A DNA stretch of 64,000 nt. Source: Paramacrobiotus metropolitanus. Lineage: Eukaryota > Tardigrada > Eutardigrada > Parachela > Macrobiotidae. Every line of letters begins with the position of its first letter. The first letter of the stretch is position 1. Both the position numbers and the translations under genes were made by a program. The stretch is taken from the NCBI RefSeq assembly GCF_019649055.1, contig NW_026570434.1:62001-126000 (forward strand). The letters are read 5' to 3'. The notes beneath the pieces are model-generated. The model saw nothing but the letters and a program-made list of their open reading frames with translations. It did no database searches and was not told where the DNA came from. Shown piece by piece: positions 5,001 to 44,030 of this stretch.

Positions 5001-8000
5001 TGTTCGTCCGCTGCGACAGAGATGATTGTCGTTGTCCAAGTTGCTGATGCAGAACACTGCACACAATTGCAACACCAAGTGGCAACCTCATCGTCTCGCT
5101 TGCTGGTTGGGTGCGTCCAGGCAACTGAGGCAAGCACTTCCGCACGCGCACCAGGTGATGGAAAACACAAAGAACAAGCGCAAAAATCTGACAGCTCGTT
5201 CCATTTTACTACTAGTACCTCTGCATTTATCTGCTCCAAAAAGTGCTTTCTTTGTTCCTATGCACTGCACGTAAGTCGTGCTTTACTTCGTAAGTCGTGC
5301 TCGTAAGTCGTGCTGACGTGCCAAGTTCTCGCGCAACCTTTTTGTGTGCTTGTAAAGCTCATATATAAACTACGGAAAGAGAGATACTCAATCAAAACCG
5401 TTTTAATGGAATTTTCTTTAGGTTTAAAACGAATAAAATAAATTCAATTCATAAAGCTTTAAAACTTCTGTACAGACCTACCATAAGTACTGTACGAATA
5501 CGAGTACTCGTACTACGGTAACTGCACTTAATCATTGAATCATGAGCAGCTTATTATACTTATCTAATTTTACTTTAATTCAAATCAGAGCTGGCAGCCC
5601 TTTTCCTGCTAAGATGACAATCTAGCCTATGATTTTTATCCTGGCTGGTGAACGCTGAAAAGGAAAAACATGGAGATCAATGTACATTGTACGGTAGAAA
5701 TGATTAAAAGCCCACACTGAACACAGCACAATCGACAGACCCAGTTCTGCAATTTTGTAACAAAAAAAAACACATCACCAGACGGGCATCATTCATTTAA
5801 AAAATCAACCCAAAAGAAGGGAACTCTAGGATAGTGCTGCCGCAACGGTTAATCTTATCCAAAAGCTTACTCATGATTCTCCATGCTAACGTTGTTTCCC
5901 ACATTTGGATGCCGCACTGGTTTGATGGTCAGCCGACCAGCGATGCGCAAACTGTATGACTTTCTTTTCTTGTTAATCCCGATCGTATCCAGTATTTAGG
6001 AGGGCATGTTTAAAGCCCCAGAATGTTCAATCTTGCTGCTCTGATGGTTGTGTAGCCAGATGGCATCTTCTTAACTTAAGTAATGTTCTTTTATTTAGGG
6101 TTATCCTGATCAGCAGTTTTATTTAGTATCATTTATTTTTAATAAATACAGATATATGTGTGGGCAACCTCTAAAATATTTCTAAATATTTAGAACTGTT
6201 TTGAAAGTGTAGAAATGCGCAAATATAGAGGTCGAGAGTTTGTGAACGACTGTGCCGAACTAGCCTTTTTAACTGCTGGCTATTCTAATATTAATAGAAA
6301 ATCTGTAAGGTTTTTCAAAGTAAGTGTCACGTACAGTTACGTTAGATTAAGTGACAAGTATCTGTACAGTTAAGTTAGGCTTGCCTTTTGCACTATTTTT
6401 CCGCTTAAGCATACAGAGTATTTGTATATGGTGAATAAAGAAATCGTTGTTTTGATTGCAGTTTTTGATTATCGTCAGCTTATATTTTGCTAGCATTGCC
6501 GGTTCTTTGATTTTTACCGTGATCAGTGCACATTGAGGTGCACCGGTGCGATTTTAGCGAAAAATCGCACCGCGGCTGCTCCCCACGGCGCCAAAATCCA
6601 CCCTTAAAACACTACTTTACGCTGAGTTCCGTGCACAATTGTTTTTCGATACAAATTTTCACTCCGCACGCTGCTTCCACTGGCTAACCCAAACCGGTTC
6701 CATTTATATAATGCTTGAATTCCGTCGCACGAATAAAGATCCTTCCTTATGTAATAAGTTTTGTAAATGTTTCCGAAATCGCTGGTACTTCCAGTAAACC
6801 GCCGCATAAAACATTTCTTGTGGCGCAGCTGTGAGTTGCCACGAACAAATGCAGGGATGAATGCGGTGGTTTGTTATCAAAACTACAGCATAAAATATCA
6901 AAGCTGTGCACTGTGCACAGTAAAAAATCTGAGAAATTTTTGGCAGTTGTGCAGTTGATTTCCCATTCCCACACTGAAATACCATTTCCATAATGAAACG
7001 CAACCCCGTTACCATTCGCATTCCCAGTTTCAGTTCCCAGTACCAATTCCCGATTCCCCATCCCAGCTTTTATTGCTGTCACGGTACCGGTTGTAATAGC
7101 GGCGCAGTTGAAGAGAGTACTTTTACGACATAAAAATTAATATAGATATGTGTACTCGTACTCAAAGGTGTACATAATACCATTAAGTAGAAATCATGTT
7201 AAGGAGCGCGGCGTGCCGGCACCATCAGCTGCTTAGCCTTGGTAAAGCAGGGCTCCATAATAGCCTCCATTATCAGTGACCACGCTACAGGCGCCAAAAT
7301 AAAGACTGAAGGTTGATGGCATCAAAGTTGTGGTTAATGCATAGGGATATGGGTGTATTTCATTTCCTATCTTTTTTCGATCGCGCTATATTATTATTAT
7401 TATTATTACATCAAGGGCAGACAACCCGATTAACGGGACTTCAACGTCTGATCACTGCAATAACAACGTTAAGATTACGGCAGATCCACCATTCTGAGAG
7501 CAAATTTAAATCACACTATCTCTTTTTCTCACACTACAGAGCGTCTTTCCGTCCAACCATTTTCTAAATTACAGCCAGCTTGTTATCGCCTCTGATTGGC
7601 GGGAAAAAGGAGATAAAACGTTCGCATCGACGAAGAACGGATATATTCATAAACAAGTGCATTAATACATAGAACATAGCACTAACATGGTGTCGCCTGT
7701 CATACTTTCGCTCGCCTTTGCCGGCGATCCTGGTGACTGGCCTAATAAATAACTACGAAAAACAGTGTTCACATATGATTATTTTATCGAATTTTGCTGC
7801 ATCTTCTGGTTGCTAATAACAGTGAGCTCACTGAACCGCATGCGAACTCAAACAGCAAGCCGAAAAATAAAAACAATATAACCGGCATATTATCATGTGC
7901 TTTAATACCTAGAATCTGATGCTTAGTAGTTAGTAACGATACTCGTATAGTCTGTAATGTGGCGCATTAAGTAAGTATTTATCATGAAATCACTACAACT

Positions 8001-10050
8001 TCCTCACTGTGCTCAATAAACAGTTAAACTTATATACCGTATTAAGCTTAATGTGTCATTAACAAGAACCACTCACAATGTTTTCGCTATGTGCTCGCTG
8101 CAAACCAGCAACGGCTTTAAACCTTTCGTACTGAGACTGACAAAATTGATATCAATGAATTTTAATACTTCGGCACTTGTTGACAACCCGTCATTCTCAC
8201 TTTGCAATTCAAACACCCGGTCACCAGCCCCCACCATTGTGACGTTTCGGAATGATGATTAATTGCTGACCGCAGTTGCAATAACGTGCAGAATTCAAAA
8301 TGCATAATAAAATTGGGTGTTGAGAAATATCGAATTACTCGCTCGCGTCTCCATACACCTGTCAGTGCGTCCACTACTACTTTACGGTATTCAAGGCATT
8401 AATAGAAGTATGCAGTAAATACCGTCTTCGTAGTAATAACACATTGTTCATAGTGGTTAGACGAAAACTACTACTTAAACATAAGTGCCAGAATTTTCTT
8501 TTTCCGGGACTAACTTCTCTTCCCCCTACATAATACCCATAAAATAAAGTGTGTTAACATTTTTTCAATGCAACGGGCAACACAGAGGGCCACGATTTTC
8601 GATTATGCCATGATAAAATAATTTAAAATAAAAAATCAAGGCTAATCTTTACAGACTAGAAATTATTATTTCAAGAAACACAAGGTCACCGAAGAGCTTA
8701 AAATCGAATCACGTTGAATAACTCGAGCATTGAATGATTATACTATGAGTATACCACAGCGATTGATTATACGTCTACGGCGTAGCTCGAGTTCAGAAGT
8801 TTGACTTTATCACGGCTGACTCTAATTACTGGGCACTGGGCTGTGACCTTTAACTTCCAGCATACGATATCGGGTAGTTACTCGTTACTTTGTACTTCAC
8901 ATAATAAAAATCTGTACACATTTTCGTTTTCAACGTTTAAGTTTCGAGATTTAACGTGGTAATGCTCAGAGCGTTCTGGGAGCTGTTCATTGTTATTTTA
9001 ACTGGAAAGGAGTTCTAATTTAGAACATGTAAAAGCAAGACGTTGTCGCTTGTTAAGTACACTGAATAAAGGTTTGTTACATGATGATATTATTCTTAGT
9101 TCGGCGATTCGAATAGTTACTTATTCAGCGGTTCAATAAAAATCCACAGAGGAGTAATAAGTGCGTAAGTATTTACGGTAACGCACACGCGGTTTGTAAA
9201 CCCAAAGGCACGGCTAATCTCTGAGCATTCAAACACAGATTGAATGTTACCATCAGATTTGTACAGTTTTTTTCCAACAATGCTGTTTTTTTTCGATAAT
9301 TCTATAGCTACCGACGTTTTGAAAAATACGCATTAAAAAACGGTATGAATAATAATAAGCCAAAATATGGATGTATACTGAGCTTTAATCGTGCTCCTAG
9401 AAACTGGTCCATCGAAAGGTTTGCGATGTTACGCTTGCCCCGTCGATTTACGAGTACAGTGCACCTGGGTATAAAAGGTACGCAATTTAATTAATTCTTA
9501 CTAAGTTCTCGGGTCAATCCGGCCTGTTTTACTGGACATGGTAATGAACTCTGTAGTACCAGGACCACGGAGAGCACCAGGTGCAGCATATCCAAAGCGG
9601 TCATCTTCAAAGTTACTGGGTTCCTTGGCAACAAAAGCTTTGTATTAACGGTTCACAACGACAAATTGATTTACTTTAACTGTAAATTCCCCGATGGCCG
9701 ACAGTTGTGCAAGTATCCAAAATAAAGCACTTCCTAAATGATAGCGCTTAGATACTTCGGCGTAAGCGTTTGATGAACAGCTGGCCGGGCAATGGTGCGT
9801 GGCTTTTGATCATCACCATTCAACAGGCAAAACACTAAAAGCTGCGTACATCACCAGTCTCGTCCGATTGGCAGTGGTACGCGTCTCCAGCAAAAGAGAA
9901 TCCACCCACGCACGTGGCTTTGTGCAGTAATTCTCGTTCAACGCTACAATACAACAACAACCAGCGTTCAAATTAAATTCAATCTAGTTAGTCTAACTTC
10001 GTAAATTGTAATCATGCAGATTGGAGACTGGCCGAAAAGTATGCATGTCA
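2007..10050. other. Gene-poor, AT-rich intergenic region
   Basis: Frames here are short and lack convincing splice structure or family motifs. Visible structures: a GC-rich palindromic patch at about 3190-3255 with nested CGCGAG/CTCGCG and GGCGTCGCC dyads; a hairpin at 6545-6571 (GGTGCGATTTT, 5-bp loop, complement); a stretch rich in TTCCCATTCCC-like words at 6958-7065; and an (ATT)n microsatellite at 7389-7408. I recognise no gene. Confidence 0.5.
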
Positions 10051-29999: not shown

Positions 30000-31104
30000 T
30001 GTCAATGTCTTTTGAGGACATCTTTTGTCTTCCTTACAGTTCCGCTAGACACCGCTTTGCACGACTGACTCACGGTCTCACGCGGATAACCAATTTATTG
30101 TAGCACAAAAATATGTAATTCTGGACCTGTGGTTACAGTTTTATCGTTAACAAGAAAGTAACAGCACTGCAACCTGCGCCGGCAATTTCTTTTTCTTGGT
30201 AATGAATAAGCAACTCCAACTTCAGCACGGAACTGCTACCGGCGACACATAATATCTTTTACCTTCTGGCTCATTTATACAAGTGTTGCGCAAAAAGTTG
30301 TATAAGCGAATAAAAGCCAACAAATCAGCAAATGCCAGTCGTGTTTTTCGGAATTTTACTTGAGATGAATGTTGGCCCTAGATAAACTTTAGAAAAAGTA
30401 ATCCTTCAAGAACGTTCTGTTTTACGCATGCTGCAAACAAGATCTTCGATTCAAGTGCTGGCGAGTTTATGCACACTTGTACCCATGCTGCTTTCACTAA
30501 TATTAATACGCTTTTAAACATAACGGACTTAACGGTTTCTCCTTCTGCGAGTCCTACGTTGTTCGGAAATACAAACACTAAAGTACAAATTATGCAGCAG
30601 AAGAAAATGACATCGACATAGGTTTTGACAGTCGCAGATGTAATATATACGCATCGAGATCAACACATTTTCGGAATTCGTGGTATTGATCCGAGTTTGA
30701 GTTTACGTACTAAGTTTTACAACCCCCGTGAAAATGTATAAGTTTTTTTGTAACAATTTTTGAACAGCAGCTATACCTTTTTGTGCCGCAAAAGTTAGTG
30801 TAGAACTTACAATTCCCAACTTAATTTGGCAGTCGTTTTTAGAAGTTTTATTGTAAGTTCCCCAGTAACACTTGTAGGTAACAGTGCAGCACATTTCGGA
30901 GACTAAAGATACAGAAAACGTACTCAAAAAGTGCATAAAAATAAAACATCGCGTGCGCTTTAGGTATTCACGTAAGGTATCAAAAATATGCTAGTGGGTA
31001 TCATAAATGCAAAACGCTAAATCGGACGTACATATTCCGCCGGTGGTAAAATAGCCAATAAAACATCATCGCGCCAAAGTTAACACTGATTTCGTAGGAA
31101 ACGC
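30000..31104. other. Left flank of the 31-42 kb element
   Basis: Mostly AT-rich. On the minus strand, frames at 30703-30936 (MHFLSTFSVSLVSEMCC, with several Cys, followed by a GTAAGT donor) and 30378-30578 could be two exons of a small Cys-containing protein, but I do not recognise it. Confidence that this is a gene is about 0.2. No clear terminal inverted repeat of the neighbouring element was found here. Confidence 0.3.
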
Positions 31105-33403
31105 TTAACCTTTGCGTGGAGTCGACTCCTTCCCATGATTGCGCAGGTAGTACAGCTTACGGCTGAAAGCGCGGATCAGCTCTGCTTCCTGGATCTTCAA
31201 CTGTTTCCCGGCCGTAGCTGGATGATATCCATTGATGTAAGCTACGACCAAAAATTTTCTATGGTGATAATGTCATAACCGGTTTTTGAAATTTCAATTA
31301 ATACCCATCAATTCGCCCATCAGATCTGTCCCCAGCGCAGATTTCAAGCCATAATGGTCTCCCCGAAAGATCCGGGTTGCCGTTTCTGTATTGCGGAAAA
31401 ACATCACCGCAAGGTTGACACCGTCCATGAGGGCATTCTTTGGCTTTAAGTGGGCCTCGAAATTGATGAACTGCCCCTTCGGCAAATACACCCCGGATCC
31501 CGGATAGAGCTCCACCTTCTCTTTGGTTTTCAATCTCAGCTGCTGCCGACAGATCTCAGCCAATTCTCTTTGCTCTTCCATGATTGCATCTAAGTGAAAC
31601 ATCAAAAAAACTTCACGGGAAAAGGTCGACCTCATCCAATAAGTTATTTAGTAAAAATTATCGAAAAAAGACCATGCTTATCTGTGCAGCATCTGTATGA
31701 AAAAGCTGAAATAGGATATGCCGCACCTTTATGTTTCGCATTCCCAGCACTTTTTGTGCCTATATAAATATGATTTTGCCGGTTACAACTGTTAGCTAAT
31801 TGTTTAATAAGTTCCTGTACCGCTAGCTTGCTTCTCCACTTTTGATGAGCCGCCACATCGCTCAGCGTCAAAATCTATGAATAAAAGAGATGCATTGAAA
31901 AATCGCGGCAAAAGCGAATGCTGAAAGTAATCAGAGCACCATATTTACATGCAAACAGTTCTGTTACCTTTCATCGGTGGAGTCGACTCCTTGCCGTAAC
32001 CTGGGTAATCTGCTTCGTCACATTTGTCGGCTCCTAAATGATACGTTAACACCGTAATAGTCAAATGCGATTATTTGGCTCTTTAACGGGTAACCTACGC
32101 ATAATCTTTTGAGGAAACAATTCTCGGGCCGCTATTGCTGGCAGTTTTGGCTTGCCCGTAGGTGGAGACAGCCTGTACCATGTATAGTTGTCACCATCAC
32201 TTCCTGCCAAGAATGTACAGTACATGTTAATGGCTCGCAGATGTATTGCTGACTTGTGGCAGTGTTCAAGCGTTCTTACGCCATCTTGAGCTCACCATAG
32301 AAAAGGTCGACCTGCTGTACTACGAAGCAATCGGAACCACTTACCATCAAATTCCTCAAATTCCTGTCGTTTCCGCTTATGAGCCGGCAGCTCTAAATTG
32401 ACTAATATTTTCAAAATAACTTAAAACAAACGGAAACAGCAACCGAGTTTCTCTGTACCTGATTGCTTTCCTTTCATGCTTCCGCTACCGGTTGCGACGG
32501 GACTACATTGTCCAACGGGCTTTCCGGTATAGGGATCAAATTTCCAGTTGCAGTTGAGATCCCGGTTGTTGCTAGCATCCGTTTTGGATTCAGGCTCTGA
32601 ACTGATTTCGTTAAGCAGGTCTTCTTGACTTTTCTTTTTAGATGGAGTCGACTCCAGCGTCCGCGCGCCCTTTCCTTTCTGCAAAATATTGCTTTGCTGA
32701 CAAACTGCTCGACGACTTTAACAGTGACGAAATACGATAATAAAAAATAAATTGTCAATAATGCACGTCTTGCAACACTATCTTACCTTTCGCGATTCCG
32801 AGTTCTTTGCAACGGAAACAGCATCTTTTTCGCTTGAAGAAATTTTAACAACCCGAGCCGAGAAGAAGCGTTGCAGAGCGTCTTGGTTCCTTGGCGCCTT
32901 CACGCTAATAATATCTCCCTCTTTCAGCAGTGCTTCATAAGTGGACATTTCTTCCAAACGCCATGCCGCGCTGCTGGACAACCGCTCCATCGAAATAATG
33001 TGAACAAGACCGTCGTCAACAAATTGAACAACACAATAATCTGCAATTTTCTTATTTTTAGTAGTAGTAGAATACGTATCCATCAACAATTACTTCCGTT
33101 ACCTTTGTCTTCTCAACTCTGTTAAAAAATAATAAAACAGACCGGAGTCGACTACTTGCAAATTTGCAAATCAAGTAGGGTTTGTTAAAAAACAGCAAAA
33201 CTGATCAGGAGTCGACTCCCAGAAATCTTTGCCGTTTTAAGTTGGATGCTACCTTTTCGAGCGGCATGTCGGGCATGAATTTCTTTCTGTTGACGCTGTT
33301 GATCATCCATTTCTATGTCGTCCTCGTTCAAGGATCCGGAAACTTTCTTCACACGCTGCGGTCTACCCTTTTGAGTAAGCGGTCTATCTTTCAGAGCTGA
33401 CAT
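31105..33403 (-). CDS. BEN-domain protein of the element
   Basis: Exons inferred: 33253-33403, a 14-nt mini-exon at about 33108, 32787-33050, 32459-32678, 32345-32401, 31968-32033, a piece near 31770-31871, 31294-31589 and about 31105-31225. The early part reads KIADYCVVQFVDDGLVHIIS and ARVVKISSSEKD, the N-terminal module common in invertebrate BEN proteins. The C-terminus (ELYPGSGVYLPKGQF, then a helical run to GTDLMGEL) fits a BEN fold. BEN domains bind DNA, in known cases palindromic sites as dimers. Three exons contain the palindrome in frame as ESTP. The phase between exons 31968-32033 and 31770-31871 does not match in my model, so one of them is wrong or the gene is damaged. Divergent from the transposase gene, with about 470 bp between starts. 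Confidence 0.6.
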
Positions 33404-33876
33404 TGTAAGCTGTAGCTGCAGAGCACCAGGAAAATAAGAAAACTAAGCTAACAAAACGAAAAATCTGGAGAATAGAGATCGTGAACCTGTTCACCGCGCA
33501 CAACTAAGAGGCTACATGCACAGGTGGGACTGAAAGAAAAAAATGCGGACGGCACGAATCGGGCGTACCGATATCATCTACGTTTACCGGGGTCGAGCCC
33601 TTCTTTTTCGATACGTACAGATAGATTTGGTAGCCATCGGCCCGCGGTGCCTATCTGTTACGAGTACAATTGTTACCGTACACAAGCAAGCGCAGTTCAG
33701 TTCAACCGAAAAAAAAGCGGAAGCCAGCGCTGCCGGCAAATTATGCGCGCGGCTTCATAAAACGAAACAACAATAGTGGCGGCGTCTTTGTCTTCTTGCA
33801 GCTACAGTTCACGCGACGATATTTTGTCTAAAATTTTTATTTTTTTAGTTACAAATTTCATCATTAAATTTCAACA

Positions 33877-36490
33877 ATGGCGGAAAAACAGCGCAAACGC
33901 CGAAAACGGTATCGATCGTACTTGTATGAAGATGGACTATTGCCGGAAACAACTCACTGGAGAAATCGTAGAAAAGTGGCCGACCCTCGAATTGTTGAGT
34001 CCAGTGATGGCGAATCGCAGCCGGACGGAGTCGACTCCTTGGTATTTTTATTTTGATTCATTAAAAATTTTAATTTATTTTGCTACGAGTGTTACTGTTT
34101 AAAAAACTGATCTTATTAACGATGTTAATTGTTCTGCGTATAAAAGGAAAATGGAAAATCATGTTTTGTCCGCTTTATCTGATATATTAATTAAATAAAG
34201 GAATTCATTGCGTTAAATTTTTTTTAAGAGCATGTCTCCTGGCGGCACCCGGGATGACGGAGCGTATGTTTCGCGAGTGGTTTCTACATCTCACGGAGAT
34301 GCCAGCTCGGATTCGTCTGAAGAGGCTGAAGGTGATTCCGGTGTCGACACCCTGGGGAATGCCATGCAGTTCGTCAGGATCTGCAGGAAACACAAAATGT
34401 CTCGCGTTCAACAAGGGGCAATGTTGCGCTTCTTCAAGAAACTACCCAAGGATACGTCGGAGTTTCCTGGAAACCTGTATTATCTCGATTCATTTCTTGC
34501 GCCTTATCTACTGAATCCGAATATTCATCATTTTTGTTATGAACATCAAAACTATATCGGAGAAGAAAACAATCTTCGGGATCCAATATGCTGTTCCAGT
34601 GCAGAATGCGGGTCGACCCATAAAACCATCAAAGACAACCGGAGGCGAGGGAGTTTTTTCCACACGTTTCCGATTGGTTGCACTGTCGAACGCTATATAA
34701 AGTCGGACAAAGGAGGCGATGTTTTTAAATTCAGAAACAGCGTTACAAATCTGGACATTTTTTGTGGGAAGGAATATCAAAGGCTCAATATAGACGGAAA
34801 AGATGTCTCGCTGACGTTTCATGTGGACGATGGACAAACGTTTGGGTTCAATGGTAGCTTAAATGGATCAATTACAGTTGTTAGTTACATAATCAACGAG
34901 CTTCCTACGCGTAAGCGCTACCGGGACCGGTTTCTATTTGCCCTTGCGGTGGGAAAGGTGAAACCGAACATGGATATTATCCTTGAGCTCCTTGCAGCGG
35001 AACTTACAGATGCGGCGAATGGGTCGACCCAAGCGGACGGAATCAGTTCGATAAAGCCGGCATTATGGGTGGCTGATACCATTGCGAGAAATGACATCTT
35101 GTGTCATGGATCTTTTGCTGGAGAATACGGATGCACTGCGTGCCTACACACAGGAAAAGTAGTCGATGGTGTTCGGGTTTACCCGTTCGATGGTGTTTCC
35201 GCAAAAAAAGATCGAAAGGAGTATATCGGCAGTGCACGGGTTGCTTTGCAGCACAGTCAACAGTGCCACGGAATAATTCGTGCAAGCCGGTTGTTTCGAA
35301 TTGCCTCTTTTAGTCCCGATGTACATTGTCCTCCTGACATTCTGCACGCCGTTGGTTTAGGAGTTACCAAAAAACTCTGCAAGTACTGGATGCAGGATCC
35401 TATGTGTTGTCTCCCTATTTACACCAATATCAGTAACCGGAGGAGGAAAATTCTGCCTGCAAATCTTCAGACTGAGGTCGACCTACGAATTTCCCGTATC
35501 AGCTTTCCATCACAATTCAGCCGCACAATTCCCCCCATATCGGAATGTTCGTCGTATCACGCCTCTGAGTATCTTAATTTTCTCATGTATGGAGCGTTTT
35601 ATGCATTGGATGGACAGTTGCCTCATGTGCTTTACAAAAATCTGTTGGATTTAGTGATGGCTATGCACTATCTCATGTTGGATTATGGAGGGTCACTAAA
35701 TAACCACGCTGCTACCGCTCATAGCCTTATTTCTCGTTATTGCCAACGATTTCAACAATTGTACGGAGAGCGTCGGATGTTGTTTAACGTTCACCAACTT
35801 ATTCACCTCTCGACAGCCCTTGAAAACTGGGGGCCCGCATATCAATGGTCGACCTTTTACTTTGAGGACTTTTTGGGTGGATTAATGAAATCGGTTCATG
35901 GCAGTACGGACGTGGCTTCACAAATTGTACGAAATTATCAACATTTAGAGGCTTCGCGCTGTCACCAGTCAGCGGCTGGCACTAGCGATGACATAAAGAC
36001 TCCCCATTTTTCGTATAAATTAACGGGTCGACCCATATATGATGCGGATTTGGCACTGCAAATTCTAGAAAAGATAGGACATTTGCAAGAAGCGCTAGAA
36101 GGTTGTCCACGGAGCTTCCGAAACCGAGTAATCCGGAGCGATGGTGTTGAACTGGAGTGTTACGGAACTAGCAGAAAAGAGCGGCGGTGCAACTACTGGT
36201 TCCAAACGGCGAATGGCGGAATAGTGAAGCTGTTAAAATTCGTTATTTTTGAATCCGTTGTGCGAAGTATTTATGTTGCTGTTGAACATATCAGAACTGA
36301 GCCGTTTAGTGCCATTACACTACCAGATGGCACAAATCCGCGTTTTATAAGAAAATGCTTGCGATTTAATTGTCAGCAATACGATGTAGTGCCTATCGGT
36401 AGTCTGTTCAGACCTGTTGTGTGTATATATGGAAAGCATAATTATCCTGAATTCTATGTCTGTATACCGAATGAGCGATTTATCATGTAA
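33877..36490 (+). CDS. tnp2/CMC-like DNA transposase
   Basis: Exon 1 is 33877-34041 (basic start, MAEKQRKRRKRYRSYL). A 187-bp intron ends in a T-rich acceptor, and exon 2 is 34229-36490, in phase. The product is about 808 residues. Family hallmarks: a Cys-rich site (DPICCSSAECG), FHVDDGQTFGFNGS, INELPTRKRYRDRFL, GSFAGEYGCTACLHTGK and CPPDILHAVGLGVTKKLCKYW, the last being this family's characteristic D.(M/L)H..GLGV.K stretch. Candidate acidic catalytic residues are the Asp pair in HVDDGQ, Asp in VADTIARND and Asp in PPDILH; which form the catalytic triad is not settled here. The frame is intact and followed by AATAAA at 36510. The protein should act in the nucleus on the element's ends. Six or seven palindromes lie inside its coding region in several frames. 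Confidence 0.85.
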
Positions 36491-36578
36491 TTAAAATCAG
36501 ATCTCTTCGAATAAATAAAACGGGTCGACCCTAGCACCGCTTTCAACAGGATGGAATTTATAAAGTAATTTTAATCAG

Positions 36579-37089
36579 TTACTTTTGTGTTTTTCTTTTC
36601 GGTAGGACCATTTCGTCTTCAAAAGCTAGACTTTCATAGTCAAAATCATCGAATTCGTCATTACTCTTTTTCGACCCGGTCGGCTCTTGATTGATAGGAG
36701 CTTCACGTTTGTGTACCTGAAATTTTTTGCATTGTATTAGTTAACAAAATAAATAGAAATTACTTAACTTTGATGATATATGGGCAACACTTATGCGCAT
36801 TTGCAGAAAATTTGTATAAACAGAACATGCATAACACCACTGCATCGTACGGGGCTTAGCTTACGCGAACAGGAAGCGCTTCCCATGTATCTTCTGGTGT
36901 ATCACATGTTGCGGTGGTAGGCGTCTTTTCTTCAGACGGAAGGTCGACCTTTTTCATCTCTTCTTTCGGTTCTTTCACAACCCTTGTGGTAGCTGTTTTC
37001 AGGGCTTCGAGGATTGCTTCTCGAGACTTGTAAGGTCGGGGATCAATTATAAAGCATCCTTCAAATAACGATTCATCATCGCTCGACAT
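36579..37089 (-). CDS. Small acidic protein of the element
   Basis: Two exons, 36865-37089 and 36579-36716, join in phase 0 at a good GTAAGC donor. The start (MSSDDESLFEGCFIIDPRPY) and the tail (NDEFDDFDYESLAFEDE, ending PKRKTQK) are strongly acidic, with a basic nuclear-localisation-like end. There is no known domain. It lies tail to tail with the transposase gene, whose 3' end is 89 bp away. A palindrome sits in its first exon (36940) and another in the region just before its start (37160). An acidic partner or regulator of the transposase is possible; this is inference only. Confidence 0.5.
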
Positions 37090-37169
37090 GCTAAAAACAA
37101 CCACTTTTTACTGTGGAACAAAAATTCGCGGCAAAACGCAGGCATTTCTTACTTGGCACGGGTCGACCC

Positions 37170-40100
37170 AGCAATAGCACCACCAAGATGAAAAGATATC
37201 AGCAAAAAAACGAAAAAAAGTTGTAGAGACAAAATTGCAAATACTGCAGATACAATTACCGATTTTTGCAAACAAGACAAAGACCGGCAGTTTTAAGCAA
37301 CACAAGGCATTTGCAAACTAAGGCTAGGTGTGGGCGTGACCAAGCTTTGCTAAATCGTACTAGACGACCGCCGTGATTCAACAATTCTGAATTGAATATT
37401 CCTATGGTATTCCTATGATTTCTTAATTTATTAAATTATTAGATTTCTTAATTAATCAGGTCAAATAGATTATTTACATTTTTTACTACATAGAATAATA
37501 CGAGTACTTAGATTTCTTAGATTTATAAAATTACTTAAACTTTTTAGATTCTTTAATTTCTTAGGGTATTTTAATCACTTAGAGCTATCGGAGGTCTTAA
37601 ATTTTTAAGATTTTTTAGATCTCTTAGATACCGCTGATTCTTAATATTTTGTCAGCAAAAATGTATTAGTTATAAGACTGAAAGTTTTAATATTTATGTA
37701 GAGATTTTACAAAATTTTGTCTTTATAAACAAAATTTTCTTTGTATTGGGTCAAACTATTTTCTGACAGCATATTCAGAATTAGCGATACCGGTTTATCC
37801 AGAAAAAGATTCGCTCATGGCGTCACTGCAACCGCCCAAAGTTATAAAGGTGCGTAAGGGACCCCGGCAGTCTAAGTTTTTCTTCCCAGAAGAATATTGA
37901 AAAATGGTTTCTGTATCGGAAAGATGTGCTGAGAATTATCCCGAAGTCAGATTTGCTCTAAAAAATGTGCCTAGGTCGATATGGGTCGCATGTAGTCACT
38001 GTCAATATTTATCGAAAATGTCATGCAGGAGTAAGAGTTAACACAAATGTAAGAGTAGGAAACGATGCTAGGAAAGGACAAACCAAACATATAAACGAAA
38101 CACGATTAAAAGTTAAACTAAACTGAAAAAAACTAAACTAAGCTCAACTGAACTAATTAATTCAATAAGAACATAGTTAGTAATGTGTGAGTAAGATGTA
38201 CTAATTATAAGTACGTATGCGTTTAATACTAAGTAATGAAGGCAAGTCAACGATAGGTAGGTGGCGCGTCAGACGGTTTTGGTAAGCCACAGTCGTGCCG
38301 CATGCGCAGACGCTGGGTTCCGACAACAGGTTTTTCCACTGAACTGTGAGATCGTTGTGCACAGAAAACTGGAAGAACCAAAAATTGCGCGGAATATTCG
38401 GGTTTTTTACTTTTACTTTTCGACGAGTAAATGCCACTGAGAACTTTTAATTTGGATAGCATCCCGGTCAACGTTTCAACCCAAAATTCTCCTGGATTAT
38501 GATTGTGTGATGCGTAGCGTTGACGGATCTAAAGAATTACAATTGTTGATCATTCCCCTTGTAACGAATATTCTCATTTTTATGGACTAGGAACTGCGGT
38601 GTCCTCTTGTTTCATATTCTCCTTATTTTGCTGAGTGCGGCGGTGTGGTGAATTGCGGTTAAGAGTCGGATGATCTGATTGTATAGTGGCGCTTGCCTTC
38701 GTGATTGGGTTTCCGTTTCTGCAGCCGAAAAAGAAGGATCACAGCCCCAACGACCCAAGTGGACGTTTATCGGTTGCGCGACGCGTTACTGATTGCCTGC
38801 CGTAGTGTAAGTGCTTTGTCCGCTGGGGGTAAATTTAATAAATAGCTGTTACGTGCGTCTTTATCGGTAGAATGCAAGACTGAAAAACCTTCAGTTTTGC
38901 GATAAACTAGGATTTTAAGTACTACTCCAAGTTTAAGTACCACCGGTAGCCCCATTGTTCGAGGAAGGTTTCGGTAAAGTTAAGGGTCTCTTGTATTTAG
39001 CATTTACGTGTTTTTCGTCATAATAATGGGTCGAAAGTACTATTAACGTTCCGCTTATGATGAGGGCTAGTTTAACTGAAACAGTTATTTTAGGACCACT
39101 AATTTTGCTTTTGTGCAGATAGCTAACCCTTCCATACAATTCGATGCACTGCTTATGGTAAATTATTGCCGGTGGTTTATCAAAAATACGCGTTTTTTTA
39201 AAAATATAATTTATTGAAATCGCGCTTTTCCATTTTTGTATTGTTTGCGTTTTTTTCTGCGACAGTTTACGCCCGGACCGGCCCGTTTAGCTGTGGGCAG
39301 GTAGTTGTTTACTTTTAGCTATTTAGCATTACTTATTTTTTCCGTTTTGCCATAACTTCACAATAAATCACTAGTAAGTAGTAGCGTTAACAATCCGTTT
39401 AACGGATTATTACTGTTTCATAAATTTATCGTGTTTTCTGCTGAAATGTGACATGTGTCAGGAGTACGCATTTAGCAAAAAAATTTCAGTACTGAAAATA
39501 CCATTTATAGGCGTGCGATTTGGGATTATTCAGCTTGAGCTTTGTGTGAAATGTAACATGATCGGAAGCATTGGGGAATTCTGAAACGTTATTGCAGTTT
39601 GTTTCCTGATTGCAGATTCTTTGGATCTCATTGTGCCCCGATTATCAGGCCGCGCCGCACAAGCCGCAGCTGCCACAGGACGGTAATACAACCAGGCCGG
39701 GATCGAAACCGGGAGATCTCTCTCACCATACGAATGTATCACAGTGTATCCTTGATTGATGCGGTGGCTTGGTACTTTCCATAATCATAACTTTTCTGGA
39801 CTGGCGTTTGGCACATTTACTTGATCGGCATTATCTATGGGTAAGTACTGTACAGTGTTGGCAGCAGACTCGCATGGCGCACCGTGCATTGTGGCCTAAA
39901 GGATTACACTGCGAGAAGGTTATAGATTATTTTTTCTTGACGGCTTTGAAGAGTTGCTTCTTTAAGTTTGAGTTTCGCGTAGAATTGCAGCCAATATAGG
40001 CAACTGAAAAGATCCCTGCTTTGAAACAGTCACACAGCAGGAATAAATGAGAACTGAAAAATTCGACTTTTCTTTGAAACTGTTGGCATGTATACTCGTA

Positions 40101-40230
40101 TCGATTTTAGTAGTAACGACTTCTCGTTTGATCGTTTGAAATCGCGGAAATACCTCTACATATGATTAATTAATGGAGGTTGTACTATATTTACCAAAAA
40201 TCGAATTTCTTGTTACAGGATTCCGCTACT
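37170..40230. other. Palindrome-free interval within the element
   Basis: Three kilobases without a single GTCGAC palindrome, unlike both sides. The left part (37370-37630) is AT-rich with repeated AGATTTCTTA words. A small plus frame at 37904-38041 (46 codons, with SIWVACSHCQYLSKM) is possibly coding. Minus frames at 38201-38471 and 38767-39139 have no recognisable family. It could be a later insertion or unrecognised cargo. Confidence 0.4.
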
Positions 40231-40249
40231 AGTGGAGTCGACTCCTAAA

Positions 40250-42044
40250 ATGGAAGATCACCGAAGAAGATTATTAGAGGCAGTATACGTAAGTTTAGCC
40301 ACCTTTGAATAACGGATTAAATGCAAAATTTAAGTCTTAAGATTTTCCAAAATTAATTCTCAACTTATCCCATGGGCATTGACGAATTGTTTTTATATTT
40401 TCCTGTTTTGTTTGCAGGAAGTGAAGAATTCCGTTCAGTGTATGATTGGCGTTGATTGTCCGTTCCACAGCCTTGTAATTTCGCCCTGCTGTAGTGGAAT
40501 AGTGTGTCATAAATGCGCAGACGAATGGATTGCACAACAGCCCGGTGCAAATGCTGACGAGAATCATGACATCGTCTGTCGTTGTCCGAATTGCAACGTG
40601 TAATACTTATATATTTTAACAGTCTATGTAGGGTCGACCCATTTTCTAACTGTAATTTTTTCTTGTTTGCAGCGAGGGGTGGAGGCTTTCTGCAGCGCTG
40701 AGATTCACTGCCATGTCGGATCTAGTGCAGAATTTAGACACCGTCGTATCGTTGGTGTCCATGGCACCAGAGATTCCTCTTCCGGGAATGAGTTCGACTG
40801 TAATCCCGCTGAATACTTTCCGCTGCGCTTTTCCAGACAGTTTTGATGGATACGAAAACAAGGGGAAGTTTTACCTGAGCGGGAATGACCTCACGCGGCT
40901 CAATATATTCGCCACGATCACGAAAGAAGTCCCAATTTTTGGGTACTGCAGAATTCCCCAGAGCATAAATAACTTGCAGTATTTGTATCTAACATAAAGA
41001 TCTGAATATTTCTTCAGTTTTTTTGCAAAATCATCATTAATCAAGCATTTGCCGGGTTTATAGAAACTCTGACATTGACTGTGAGCTGATGGGCACTGAG
41101 CTCCATAAATACATTCGTTTTTCCATGGATATGGAAAAGGCGGTCCAGGAGTGGGCGCAGTTCTTGGCAAAACACACAGGTCGACCTACACTTGCATCTT
41201 CTGCCTTCCTCCCCCGCAGTCTACAGAAGCCGCCATCCGTCAAAGACCAGGCTTCGGTGTCGTGTTATGTTTACGACTGGATTAAACCGTTCCTTTCAAA
41301 CTCGCCGGAGGTAGAGGAATTGTTCGGTTAAGTCATAATTTGTACGACTTTCAGTCACTTTATTTGCGCATTTAACAGACGGCGAAAAGTATGCTGGACT
41401 CTGTGGGACTCTGTCGCCTCGCCACCCGTCGGCTCGACCTGTCCCTGCCGCACAAGCATTGGACAGAAACTGCCACCTGCCATTGCGTGATGTGTCTGAT
41501 TAGATCGGAAGTCCGTTCTTATTTAAACCACGCTCATAAATGGTAGTTAGTTATTATTGTGTAGATTTTTTTCCATCAGTATACAGTTTGTAATGACTGC
41601 TTTAATGCAGGTCAAAGGGGGAGTTCTATTACGTCTTGTGTACCCTCTGCGGTGAGAATATCAACTGGCTGCATATTACCACGCATATGAAGAGGATTCA
41701 CGCGGTAAGAATTAAGGAGTCGACTCCAGTTCTGGCTAATAATTCTGTTTCTGATGGAAATATTTTCTCTGCAGAAAAAGTTTTACCTGAAATGCCGAGG
41801 CTGCTTCGCTCCTTTGTCTGGACCTTTTTATAAAGGTGATGTTGCACATGCAACTGAGTGCAACGCTCGGGAGTGTCCTCTGGCTTCTGGACCGCTGGCC
41901 ACGAGGGGGCGAGTGATTCCACCGCATACAATTTTTGAAATCCCGCCACTGAACATCCCGGCGACGGACGACCTGATCGAGCTGGTGACATACGAGACTG
42001 TGAAGGATGGGAGTACTCAGCTCGTCATTTTGTGCAACACGTAG
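40250..42044 (+). CDS. RING-like multi-zinc-finger protein of the element
   Basis: Seven exons with GT..AG borders and matching phases: 40250-40288, 40418-40599, 40673-40942, 41064-41310, 41379-41542, 41611-41704, 41775-42044. The N-terminus is a RING-like Cys/His cluster (QCMIGVDC, SPCCSGIVCHKCADEW, CRCPNC). Later exons hold three more zinc-binding candidates: TCHCVMC..LNHAHKW, LCTLCGENINWLHITTHMKR and LKCRGCFAPLSG..HATEC. A RING suggests ubiquitin or SUMO ligase activity and the other fingers suggest nucleic-acid binding; both are inferred. Palindromes lie before the start (40234), in two introns (40631, 41716) and in one exon (41178). The 3' leader has another intron (42051 onward) and AATAAA near 42314 and 42347. 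Confidence 0.6.
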
Positions 42045-42349
42045 AAAAGTAAGCAAAAACATATGTTTTTCCAATTTTTCTTGTCCAACTTCACTTGATA
42101 ATTTTTAATTCGCTTGAGAATATTACGTTCTTCGTTTCCAGATGTATGCTCCTTTGGCTTTGACACGCATGCCGTCGTGACCGCTGCGACTCTGGTGTTT
42201 CTGGTTAGAATTAGCCGATCGCATTTCCTCTGCCTGGATTTGTTTAAACCCTCTTCGACGATGCTCATTTCCTACAATCATCATCTTAGCCCTATTATTT
42301 TTTGCTTCGCATCAATAAATTTGTTGTTTTTCTCCTGGCTTACTTAAAT

Positions 42350-44030
42350 AAATCAGTAATTTCGGACAGACTTCAGCAAATAATTGCGACGTTCTGATTG
42401 TTTTTTTAATTTTTTTACGAATAGTATTTTGCCGCGTCTGTTCTCGATTTGTGATAATGAAAATGCTGAACTATCGTGGAAGTTTTGTGTAGCATTCAGT
42501 GTAAGTAAACAAAGATGAGAAGTTACATTAAACTTCGACATAGAATCGGCTGCTCACAAAATATTTTACAACGTTTAGTAGTAACTTCTATAGTACACGA
42601 ATTCTTCACTAGATCTTTTTTGTAACTTTCATTTTCACGAGGGCAATGGTTTTTAGAGTATAGTTATTCTTCAAGGAATCTGCACTTTCATGAAAGAGAC
42701 ATTTATAACAAGTTCCGACTGGTAAGTTTCTAATTAAAATGTGTTGTTAGGCTGGTTATATTCTTAAATTAGGTTTATTATAAAATAATATCAGCACGGG
42801 TGGTTTCTTGTATGTACCAAAACTTTTGACATTTCCACGAGGCTACTTCAGCAGGGCTTAGTTGATTTGTTTGAATGGTTTCTAGGTTTTCTTCCCATGT
42901 CATGCGGCCTTTTCAGAAAAGTGTCAGCGAGACGAGGGTCATCAGTGGTATTCGCTATAGCAGTTTTGTCCTTGCTGCAGCGTACGCGGTGTTTAAGTTG
43001 GTGGGTTATTATTATTCTGTTATATTACAGTTTAATGATGACGAACGTTGCCCTCTATTTTTGATCTGTCTACCTCATTACATGGTCAAATGGAGCACCC
43101 CAACAAGCAGCCGTAGTAAGTCAGTTTCCGGGTACTTCTTATTTCCGGGTACTTTCCGGGCACTTCTTTAAGAAGCCAGTAAATAAAAATAAAATGATTG
43201 CACCAATTACAAATTGAGCAAAAAACGTTTGTACAACATAGCAAACGCTAAACGTTATATTTATTCTTGAAAACAGCATTCTTAAATCTAAAACGTTTAC
43301 AGCATCTGTATATCTAAAATAAAACGCTGAGTGTTGTGTTTAGCATAGAAAATAGCATAACTGCAGCATTGGCACTACAAGTAAACATTTTGTATTTACG
43401 AGCGAGAAAGTTGCGATCTAGCTTGCCAACTACGTCGCCATCTTCAGCTTGAACACAGGTGTGGCCGTCCGGCCGTTCTTCTGTCGCCGACAAGAATCTG
43501 CCACCAGTAGCGTAAACAGTCGGGACGACCATCAGAGCCTGCACGGCTGCTGGTCGCCGCGGCTCTGCTGTGCCACGCAGTTTTATCCTTTGTTTTGAAC
43601 ATTATCGTTCTTCTCAATTTTCGCCAAGTTTGTCACCGTTTATAGTTGCGGTAGTTTATCGACATGGGTAATTGCGAAATAGCCTAATACTAGTACTAAT
43701 ACTAGTGAAAGCAGTTTATTTGCTTACAACACCCGTTTTGCGCTACTTCACTGTGTACTTACTGCACTTCTACTACATAGTATGCAAAGTAGTAAATTTT
43801 GCTCAACGGCAGTATAACTTCAACGACTGCTGAACATGTAGTGTAATTGTAAGCAGAACATAACAGAGCAAAGCAGATTATACTCCGAAATATAAGATTG
43901 CAAGTAGAAAAATTAGCTAATCTGTCTACATTACATTCTGCTGCTCGTGATCTTGGTGGCAGGCAAAGAGTCTTCAAGTTCGTGCAATTCTAGTGGCGAT
44001 TCAGTATTGTACATTTTCATTTTCATACGC
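42350..44030. other. Spacer between the large element and the retrotransposon
   Basis: No recognised gene. A short tandem of TTCCGGGTACTT-like units occurs at 43124-43166. The right end of the large element probably lies in the first few hundred bases, but I saw no terminal repeat. Confidence 0.4.

Follow-up and report, generated by a model that had tools for sequence, protein, structure and literature searches.

The question raised by this locus is why about 20 short palindromes crowd into one segment of a tardigrade genome. The stretch analysed, hereafter the window, comprises 64,000 nucleotides of Paramacrobiotus metropolitanus (contig NW_026570434.1, positions 62,001 to 126,000), and the palindromes, which share the core GTCGAC, lie in a transposon of the CACTA type. 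The original prediction, made from the letters of the window alone, had described them as a dispersed recognition site of the element's own DNA-binding protein. The phenomenon is larger than this, since mirrored variable arms, a second transposon family and a distribution over two transposase superfamilies are now added to it.

GTCGAC palindromes in the window

The window contains 25 GTCGAC sites where 9.3 were expected, a number that none of 100 shuffles reached. As predicted, they are concentrated in one segment: 21 of the 25 fall in 31118-41727, and all 21 centre perfect palindromes (one of 14 bp, nine of 12 bp, nine of 10 bp and two of 8 bp). Outside the element, three of the four sites had no mirrored arm base and one was an 8-bp palindrome. 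GTCGAC was by far the most enriched of the 64 palindromic 6-mers, with 1.98 per kb inside and 0.075 per kb outside, and the runner-up GGATCC occurred four times inside and four times outside. The non-random classes of the prediction were also found again, with GGA..TCC chiefly in the outer parts and GGG..CCC chiefly in the inner part; AGG..CCT was scattered. The transposon, two of its genes and the 21 palindromes are given below; where no strand is named, none applies.

30723-42643: CACTA-type transposon, family A, 11,921 bp; borders by alignment of four copies
31109-33403, minus strand: gene with introns; conserved domain at the N terminus, BEN-like domain (unconfirmed) at the C terminus; hand-read model
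34232-36490, plus strand: transposase open reading frame (ORF), 752 amino acids, six palindromes within
31118-31129: palindrome GGAGTCGACTCC, last exon of the minus-strand gene
31623-31632: palindrome AGGTCGACCT, within an intron next to the BEN-like exon; family B has a site at the corresponding position
31979-31990: palindrome GGAGTCGACTCC
32304-32313: palindrome AGGTCGACCT
32643-32656: palindrome TGGAGTCGACTCCA, exon of the minus-strand gene
33146-33153: palindrome AGTCGACT, decayed in the window copy; copy C46 reads TGGAGTCGACTCCA
33208-33219: palindrome GGAGTCGACTCC
34027-34038: palindrome GGAGTCGACTCC
34340-34351: palindrome GGTGTCGACACC, transposase ORF
34610-34619: palindrome GGGTCGACCC, transposase ORF; homologous site in family B
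35020-35031: palindrome TGGGTCGACCCA, transposase ORF; homologous site in family B
35475-35484: palindrome AGGTCGACCT, transposase ORF; homologous site in family B
35847-35854: palindrome GGTCGACC, transposase ORF
36025-36034: palindrome GGGTCGACCC, transposase ORF; homologous site in family B
36522-36531: palindrome GGGTCGACCC
36940-36951: palindrome AAGGTCGACCTT
37160-37169: palindrome GGGTCGACCC
40234-40245: palindrome GGAGTCGACTCC
40631-40640: palindrome GGGTCGACCC
41178-41187: palindrome AGGTCGACCT
41716-41727: palindrome GGAGTCGACTCC

The segment had been rightly assigned to a multi-gene transposon, but its limits and spacing needed correction: the true span is 30723-42643, and a stretch of 3.1 kb (37162-40237) is free of sites. 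Comparable gaps of 2.4-3.4 kb were found in the other three copies of family A. The stretch may be an old insertion that was fixed before the A copies spread.

Conservation of the sites in families A and B

Genome-wide counts were made in the genome of the same species (169.8 Mb, 533 contigs), in which copies are named by contig, and each was compared with the reversed pattern as a control. Family A consists of the window copy, C46, C82 and C105, and family B of C19, C57, C116 and C122; two further copies, C11 and C76, are termed E. Transposase identity to the window protein was 96% for C46, 89% for C105 and 89% for C82 (longest piece, as the C82 gene is broken). The B copies were 44-45% identical to family A, C11 43% and C76 42%. 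The density of the segment is not typical of the genome, where GGAGTCGACTCC was found 74 times against 4 for the control.

When the four A copies were aligned, 24 site columns were obtained. C46, C82 and C105 keep most of the sites at equivalent positions, in line with the expectation that other copies would carry the palindromes. Most columns retain core and arms, and point decay of some cores or arms was seen in every copy including that of the window. Decayed cores read GCCGAC, GTTGAC, TTCGAC or GTCGAG, and arm changes on one side also occur.

The symmetry was tested by shuffling the right arms among the sites 5000 times, with C116 and C122 covered over a partial stretch. Arm positions are numbered outward from the core as ±1, ±2 and so on. 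Arm pairing in the four A copies was 0.95-1.00 at ±1, 0.90-0.95 at ±2 and 0.54-0.65 at ±3, and 0, 1, 0 and 0 of the 5000 shuffles reached the observed symmetry.

In family B the palindromes are longer and have the form TGNNNGTCGACN'N'N'CA. We found 17 of at least 12 bp in C19, 18 in C57, 15 in C116 and 15 in C122; further GTCGAC sites with short or no symmetry numbered one in C57, six in C116, two in C122 and none in C19 (for example, C57 3196 and C116 5367). The triplet NNN took 13 values over 19 site positions; at one of these positions the triplet, TCG, comes from copies with a decayed core, GTCAAC. The arms of C19 were nevertheless mirrored at 17 of 17 sites from ±1 to ±4 and at 16 of 17 at ±5, where shuffled right arms gave an expected pairing of 0.36-0.47 at ±1 to ±3. 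For each of the four B copies, all 5000 shuffles stayed below the observed symmetry total, and at ±6 pairing dropped to 0.07-0.16. Nearly all arm pairs were Watson-Crick pairs (84 of 85 in C19 and, for sites of at least 12 bp only, 89 of 90 in C57).

Two long palindromes that lack the core were also seen in the C19 transposase ORF, CGCATCCAGCTGGATGCG (L025:4350-4367, L025 being the C19 locus) and GCAGCATATGCTGC (L025:5358-5371). Both are present in C57 and C122 and are not listed for C116. The right part of the family B elements holds repeated, partly tandem sequence (in C19 at about L025:7440-8360, and in C57 and C122).

Mirrored changes at homologous sites

In the 338.5 kb covered by the analysis, 212 of 276 GTCGAC sites were mirrored at ±1 and ±2, compared with 596 of 6370 sites of the other 63 palindromic cores; related copies are each counted separately here. 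Inside mapped elements 194 of 219 GTCGAC sites were mirrored in this way, and outside 18 of 57. Twelve of these 18 belong to the unmapped carriers L013, L014 and L021, three to E copies, and three lie elsewhere. Background GTCGAC sites from unrelated DNA, 18 in number, showed no clear symmetry (0.33, 0.39 and 0.17 at ±1, ±2 and ±3).

Copies of family B were then compared at 18 sites whose core is intact in three or all four copies, a choice that favours identity of the core and not of the arms. Between C19 and C116 the palindromes were identical at 267 of 288 positions (93%) and the flanks within 60 bp at 1285 of 2042 (63%). The free NNN arms matched at 97 of 108 positions. Many of the mismatches come from one site, which the aligner set 26 columns off in C116. 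A mirrored synonymous change, TGCGG..CCGCA to TGCAG..CTGCA, sets C116 apart from the remaining B copies.

Five pairs of A and B sites could be compared, four of them matched by aligning the codons of the transposase ORF and one by its intron position beside the BEN-like exon; in one of the codon-aligned pairs the two families lie 6 bases apart across a gap. At ±1 three of the five pairs differ, each on both sides and mirrored, and at ±2 none differs. At ±3 the arms are unpaired in A at four of five sites and paired in B at all five. Some of these sites also keep the protein sequence (E-V-D-L, G-R-P). The piggyBac elements L017 and L018, introduced below, are 53% identical over their longest match. 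One homologous site reads GAG..CTC in the former and AGG..CCA in the latter and is mirrored at ±1 and ±2 in both; another occupies the equivalent place with an offset of one base, and in the matched stretches each element has two more sites without a counterpart in the other.

Mirrored changes at homologous sites point to selection on the DNA and its symmetry, and the two-fold symmetry itself seems to be maintained by selection. Inheritance by recent copies only was rejected on the grounds of the mirrored changes between A and B, within B and between L017 and L018, together with the conservation of the palindromes above that of their flanks.

Spacing and placement of the sites

The gaps between sites were compared with 20000 sets of random points, omitting sites without any mirrored pair, and were found to be more regular. 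For C19 the mean gap was 454 bp with a coefficient of variation (CV) of 0.27, and for C57 (sites of at least 12 bp) 428 bp with a CV of 0.26; no random set was as regular as either. In the block left of the 2.4-3.4 kb gap, the window copy had a mean of 378 bp (CV 0.45, P 0.0006) and C105 one of 327 bp (CV 0.37, 0 of 20000). The piggyBac elements gave 321 bp for L017 (P 0.0007) and 228 bp for L018 (P 0.0096).

Exons on either strand, introns and intergenic DNA all contain sites. They run through the window element, ORFs included, from 398 bp after its left end to 0.9 kb before its right end. The first site is about 370-400 bp from the left end (by subtraction) in A, in B and in the five 2-kb elements described next.

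Palindromes in piggyBac and non-autonomous elements

Five non-autonomous elements of 2 kb (L015, L016, L019, L022 and L024) have the termini of family A and three to four GTCGAC sites each, with arms intact at some sites only. Their 3-bp target site duplications are TTT, ATA, CCC, CGC and ACA. For L015, with three sites only, 1696 of 5000 shuffles reached the observed symmetry, and the test is uninformative. L021 holds a related fragment. A long tandem array (L021:5218-9778) starts about 100 bp past this palindrome-bearing fragment.

The palindromes were also found in piggyBac elements: L018, L020 and L023 (3.35 kb) carry 12, 11 and 11 sites and L017 carries nine. On inspection, all four have TTAA at both ends. 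The domain DDE_Tnp_1_7 (PF13843) was detected in two ORFs of L018 (E values 3e-46 and 2e-16) and in L017 (5e-65), and L020 and L023 are 92-99% identical to L018. Two more piggyBac loci, on C153 and C195, have palindromes nearby. In the compared stretches of L017 and L018, and of L013 and L014, tblastx found no gene of the window element. For these piggyBac and repeat sets the symmetry test was weaker, with 39 (L018), 29 (L017), 137 (L013) and 231 (L014) of 5000 shuffles reaching the observed value.

The L013 repeat is present at 10 places in the genome. Two near-identical copies (99.4%; L013:1941-3466 and 7664-9097) lie 5.9 kb apart and bear the same palindromes, and this is the sole place that resembles a recent duplication.

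The pattern TGNNNGTCGACNNNCA occurred only 363 times genome-wide against 236 for the control, a weak excess because most matches are background. Of the first 50 places listed for it, 23 were mirrored by reading, compared with 1 in 64 by chance. TGGATGTCGACATCCA occurred 31 times against none for the control. A repeat with B-type palindromes has the arms GAT, CAT, GCT and TCG in recurring order, about 0.3-1.1 kb apart, and among the matches listed it was found at the following places and at others.

C1:1899539, C3:1969978, C4:24108, C5:2082899, C6:2995736, C7:1291653 and C9:1408570: B-type repeat with ordered arms

Borders and genes of the window transposon

The other features of the transposon are the following.

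30720-30722: target site duplication CAA, left
30723-30736, plus strand: left terminal inverted repeat CCCCCGTGAAAATG
36578-37089, minus strand: small acidic gene, hand-read, end approximate; found in the other A copies
40250-42042, plus strand: cysteine-rich, RING-like gene, hand-read, end approximate; no Pfam match
42630-42643, minus strand: right terminal inverted repeat CATTTTCACGAGGG
42644-42646: target site duplication CAA, right

Duplications of 3 bp flank all four A insertions (CAA, ATA, AAT and TAT), which agrees with the 2-3 bp of the CACTA/EnSpm superfamily. The window transposase itself had no Pfam transposase match, and eight of nine homologues, which are 25-28% identical to it, carry PF02992 (Tnp2/Transposase_21 type). 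Its assignment to this transposase type, that of CACTA/EnSpm, is therefore by homology only. Since the termini are not CACTA (CCCCCGTG/CCCTCGTG in family A, CCCTCGTC or CCCTTGTC in family B), we use the label CACTA-type and claim no strict CACTA membership. For the acidic and the cysteine-rich gene no convincing counterpart was found in families B or E (best E value 0.29). A 22-bp inverted repeat, 91% complementary, stands on either side of the transposon (30488-30509 and 43693-43714). The transposon may be nested inside an older short element of about 1.3 kb.

The BEN-like protein and the E copies

The BEN-like gene matched no Pfam family, neither with the A piece (E value up to 1) nor with the B and E pieces and two database relatives (E value up to 10). 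When the whole hand-spliced minus-strand protein was compared with the database, none of 3669 candidates had an E value of 1 or below; with a profile, three were found. Among solved structures, a profile search ranked two NACC1 chains, at E values of 0.84 and 1.2, behind two unrelated chains, at 0.16 and 0.8. The AlphaFold model was mostly helical and of low confidence (mean predicted local distance difference test, pLDDT, of 47), and a single-sequence fold had a pLDDT of 43.

C11 showed no match to the BEN-like exon within its 10 kb. Scans of the E copies for k-mers, spaced dyads and mirrored cores gave no alternative motif comparable to the palindromes. GTCGAC itself was mildly enriched in them (9 against 1.6 expected), and three of these sites were mirrored at ±1 and ±2. 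The sole E site that is homologous to an A/B site is in C11 (L030:6850, L030 being the C11 locus), where GGGTCGACCC is retained at the conserved G-R-P codons of the transposase.

A DNA mark and its possible readers

Taken together, the sequences support a selected, strand-neutral DNA mark that extends over whole elements and crosses superfamilies. It appears every ~230-450 bp in the CACTA families A and B and in piggyBac, with three to four sites in the 2-kb A-type elements. The core GTCGAC is fixed, and the arms, of about 2-3 bp in family A and 5 bp (TGNNN) in family B, may vary yet mirror each other. The mark would act as DNA and not as RNA, because the positions that must pair hold almost no G-U-type pairs.

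As a whole account, we tentatively propose a VANC-like anti-silencing mark bound by an element-encoded dimer, perhaps the BEN-like protein; this is possible, and we would not call it probable. A two-fold symmetric protein would act in trans and bind every site, so that a bound dimer would be near every part of the element. The site types are family-specific, so that the readers are probably encoded by the elements; two diverged readers could then account for the difference between A and B sites, with the BEN-like protein as the leading candidate. Non-autonomous and piggyBac elements would carry A-type sites in order to be served in trans by the A reader. What the element would most likely gain is that it stays accessible when the host acts to silence it, an effect that VANC proteins have on VANDAL transposons. 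Mirrored arms would require some coupling of the two half-sites.

Several observations weigh against this account. A simple dimer, or plain recognition of half-sites, does not require mirrored arms. The BEN identity of the minus-strand protein is unconfirmed, and C11 and C76, although related to A and B, are without the palindrome system. C76 even encodes a BEN-like domain, so the BEN-like gene does not predict the marks, and BEN as the sole explanation was rejected. The original prediction fared accordingly: a dispersed, non-random and conserved site stood, but its reading by the element's own protein was not supported, and BEN as the reader is further weakened by the missing Pfam match and by the two compared piggyBac elements, in which tblastx found no gene of the window element. 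In addition, two A-type motifs of 14 bp or less are mostly unassigned: GAGGTCGACCTC was found 139 times genome-wide against 13 for the control, and CGAGGTCGACCTCG 101 times against 1, mostly at well-separated single places among the 50 listed. Their frequency outside the mapped families leaves room for a host reader.

Such a host protein would have genomic sites of its own with GTCGAC palindromes, on which unrelated transposons would have converged. The occurrence of the mark in two superfamilies and the separate places of CGAGGTCGACCTCG would fit. Some CGAGGTCGACCTCG and GAGGTCGACCTC places are, however, accounted for by the L013 repeat, whose three places in the listed contig range (C1 twice, C35) are all among those listed for CGAGGTCGACCTCG. 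The A and B sites also differ in length and arms, unlike what convergence on one host factor would give, and we give this reading a slim chance. A better explanation of the symmetry as such would be that self-complementarity itself is read, as a hairpin or cruciform (loop TCGA, stem 3-6 bp) in single-stranded or extruded DNA or as a hairpin in transcripts, by a structure-reading protein. It accounts directly for the mirroring of free bases, it agrees with the Watson-Crick pairs of family B, and five B sites tested fold as DNA at -3.7 to -8.4 kcal/mol. Two A-type sites, however, gave -1.9 and -1.2 kcal/mol, no better than shuffles. An RNA hairpin is disfavoured by sites in introns and between genes and by the G-U-type pairs at required positions, of which there were 0 of 85 in C19, 1 of 90 in C57, 0 of 48 in C105 and 0 of 42 in the window copy. 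G-U-type pairs do occur at ±3 of the window copy (5 of 21, where the minus strand has G-U), with single cases in L017 and L018. We consider the reading of structure unlikely, at perhaps one chance in a few.

The sites could also serve transposition, in that a bound protein compacts or coats the element, joins its ends or shields excised DNA from self-integration. Regular spacing through the body including the ORFs, the similar distance of the first site from the left end, the sites retained by non-autonomous elements and a mark common to DDE elements of two superfamilies would all suit this role. Self-integration of Sleeping Beauty and piggyBac is inhibited by BANF1, which according to the available text binds DNA without sequence specificity (PMC3952818) and so needs no sequence mark. 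Like BANF1, one DNA-coating protein could serve unrelated DDE elements; unlike what that text describes, there is a specific conserved site here. The related copies C11 and C76 do without the system, all four A copies have the 2.4-3.4 kb gap, and a role in transposition is in our view rather improbable. If the site were an ordinary dimer site and mutation, not selection, kept its arms alike, template switching would copy one arm onto the other and would produce mirrored changes at homologous sites. Yet one-sided changes of arms and cores remain uncorrected in decayed copies, the symmetry of family B stops sharply at ±5, and the background GTCGAC sites in unrelated DNA lack it, which makes this mechanism quite improbable. 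Chance, composition or an assembly artefact can practically be dismissed in view of the shuffles, the reversed-pattern controls, the separate insertion sites and the conservation above flanks.

Comparison with known systems

The closest analogue in function would be the VANC proteins, which keep VANDAL transposons of Arabidopsis from silencing in a sequence-specific manner. Their motifs are fixed, of 8-9 bp, tandem, in one orientation and mainly non-coding, and the motif is also found in the unrelated element AT9TSD1 (PMC5735166). As far as the available text of that paper goes, and comparing function only, both systems have a short motif repeated in the copies, with family-specific variants, that is shared with an unrelated element. 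The tardigrade sites differ from those described there, again to the disadvantage of the VANC-like account, in being single, palindromic, regularly spaced and also in exons, with arms that vary in mirrored fashion. If the reader is a VANC-like factor, rating the mark as a variant of a known system would be fairer.

Plant CACTA elements (Spm/En) have fixed subterminal motifs near their ends that are bound by TnpA. Like them, the window transposon is a CACTA-type element with a candidate accessory DNA-binding protein; unlike them, its sites are not confined to the ends and run through the body. The BEN-domain proteins Insensitive of Drosophila and BANP of vertebrates bind palindromes, each one sequence. 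The core here is likewise palindromic and the element encodes a BEN-like protein of unconfirmed membership, but in C76 such a domain occurs without palindromes. Bacterial parS and matS are short dispersed palindromes of fixed sequence that are bound by dimers, and we know of no mirrored variation in them.

The original prediction knew of no described element with this architecture, and our literature searches, which left most subscription papers outside their scope, found no such site system either. To our knowledge, no system combines symmetry without fixed sequence and use by several superfamilies, and the signal was therefore rated as categorically new. We would put it at even chances that a new kind of signal is involved, in which two-fold symmetry around a fixed 6-bp core is read instead of a fixed sequence. 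It would show compensatory evolution, would stand in coding sequence at regular intervals and would act as a common licence across unrelated superfamilies, with one trans-acting factor for each type of site.

RNA stems are expected to evolve by compensatory, mirrored changes, and protein-binding sites in DNA are not. A reader able to sense symmetry would be needed to explain such changes at strand-neutral sites that recur every few hundred bases, also inside the ORFs, in two superfamilies. If this holds up, the mark would offer a direct way to test how DNA transposons of animals label themselves, escape silencing or shield their excised DNA, and it would be an example of one trans-acting service used by unrelated transposons.

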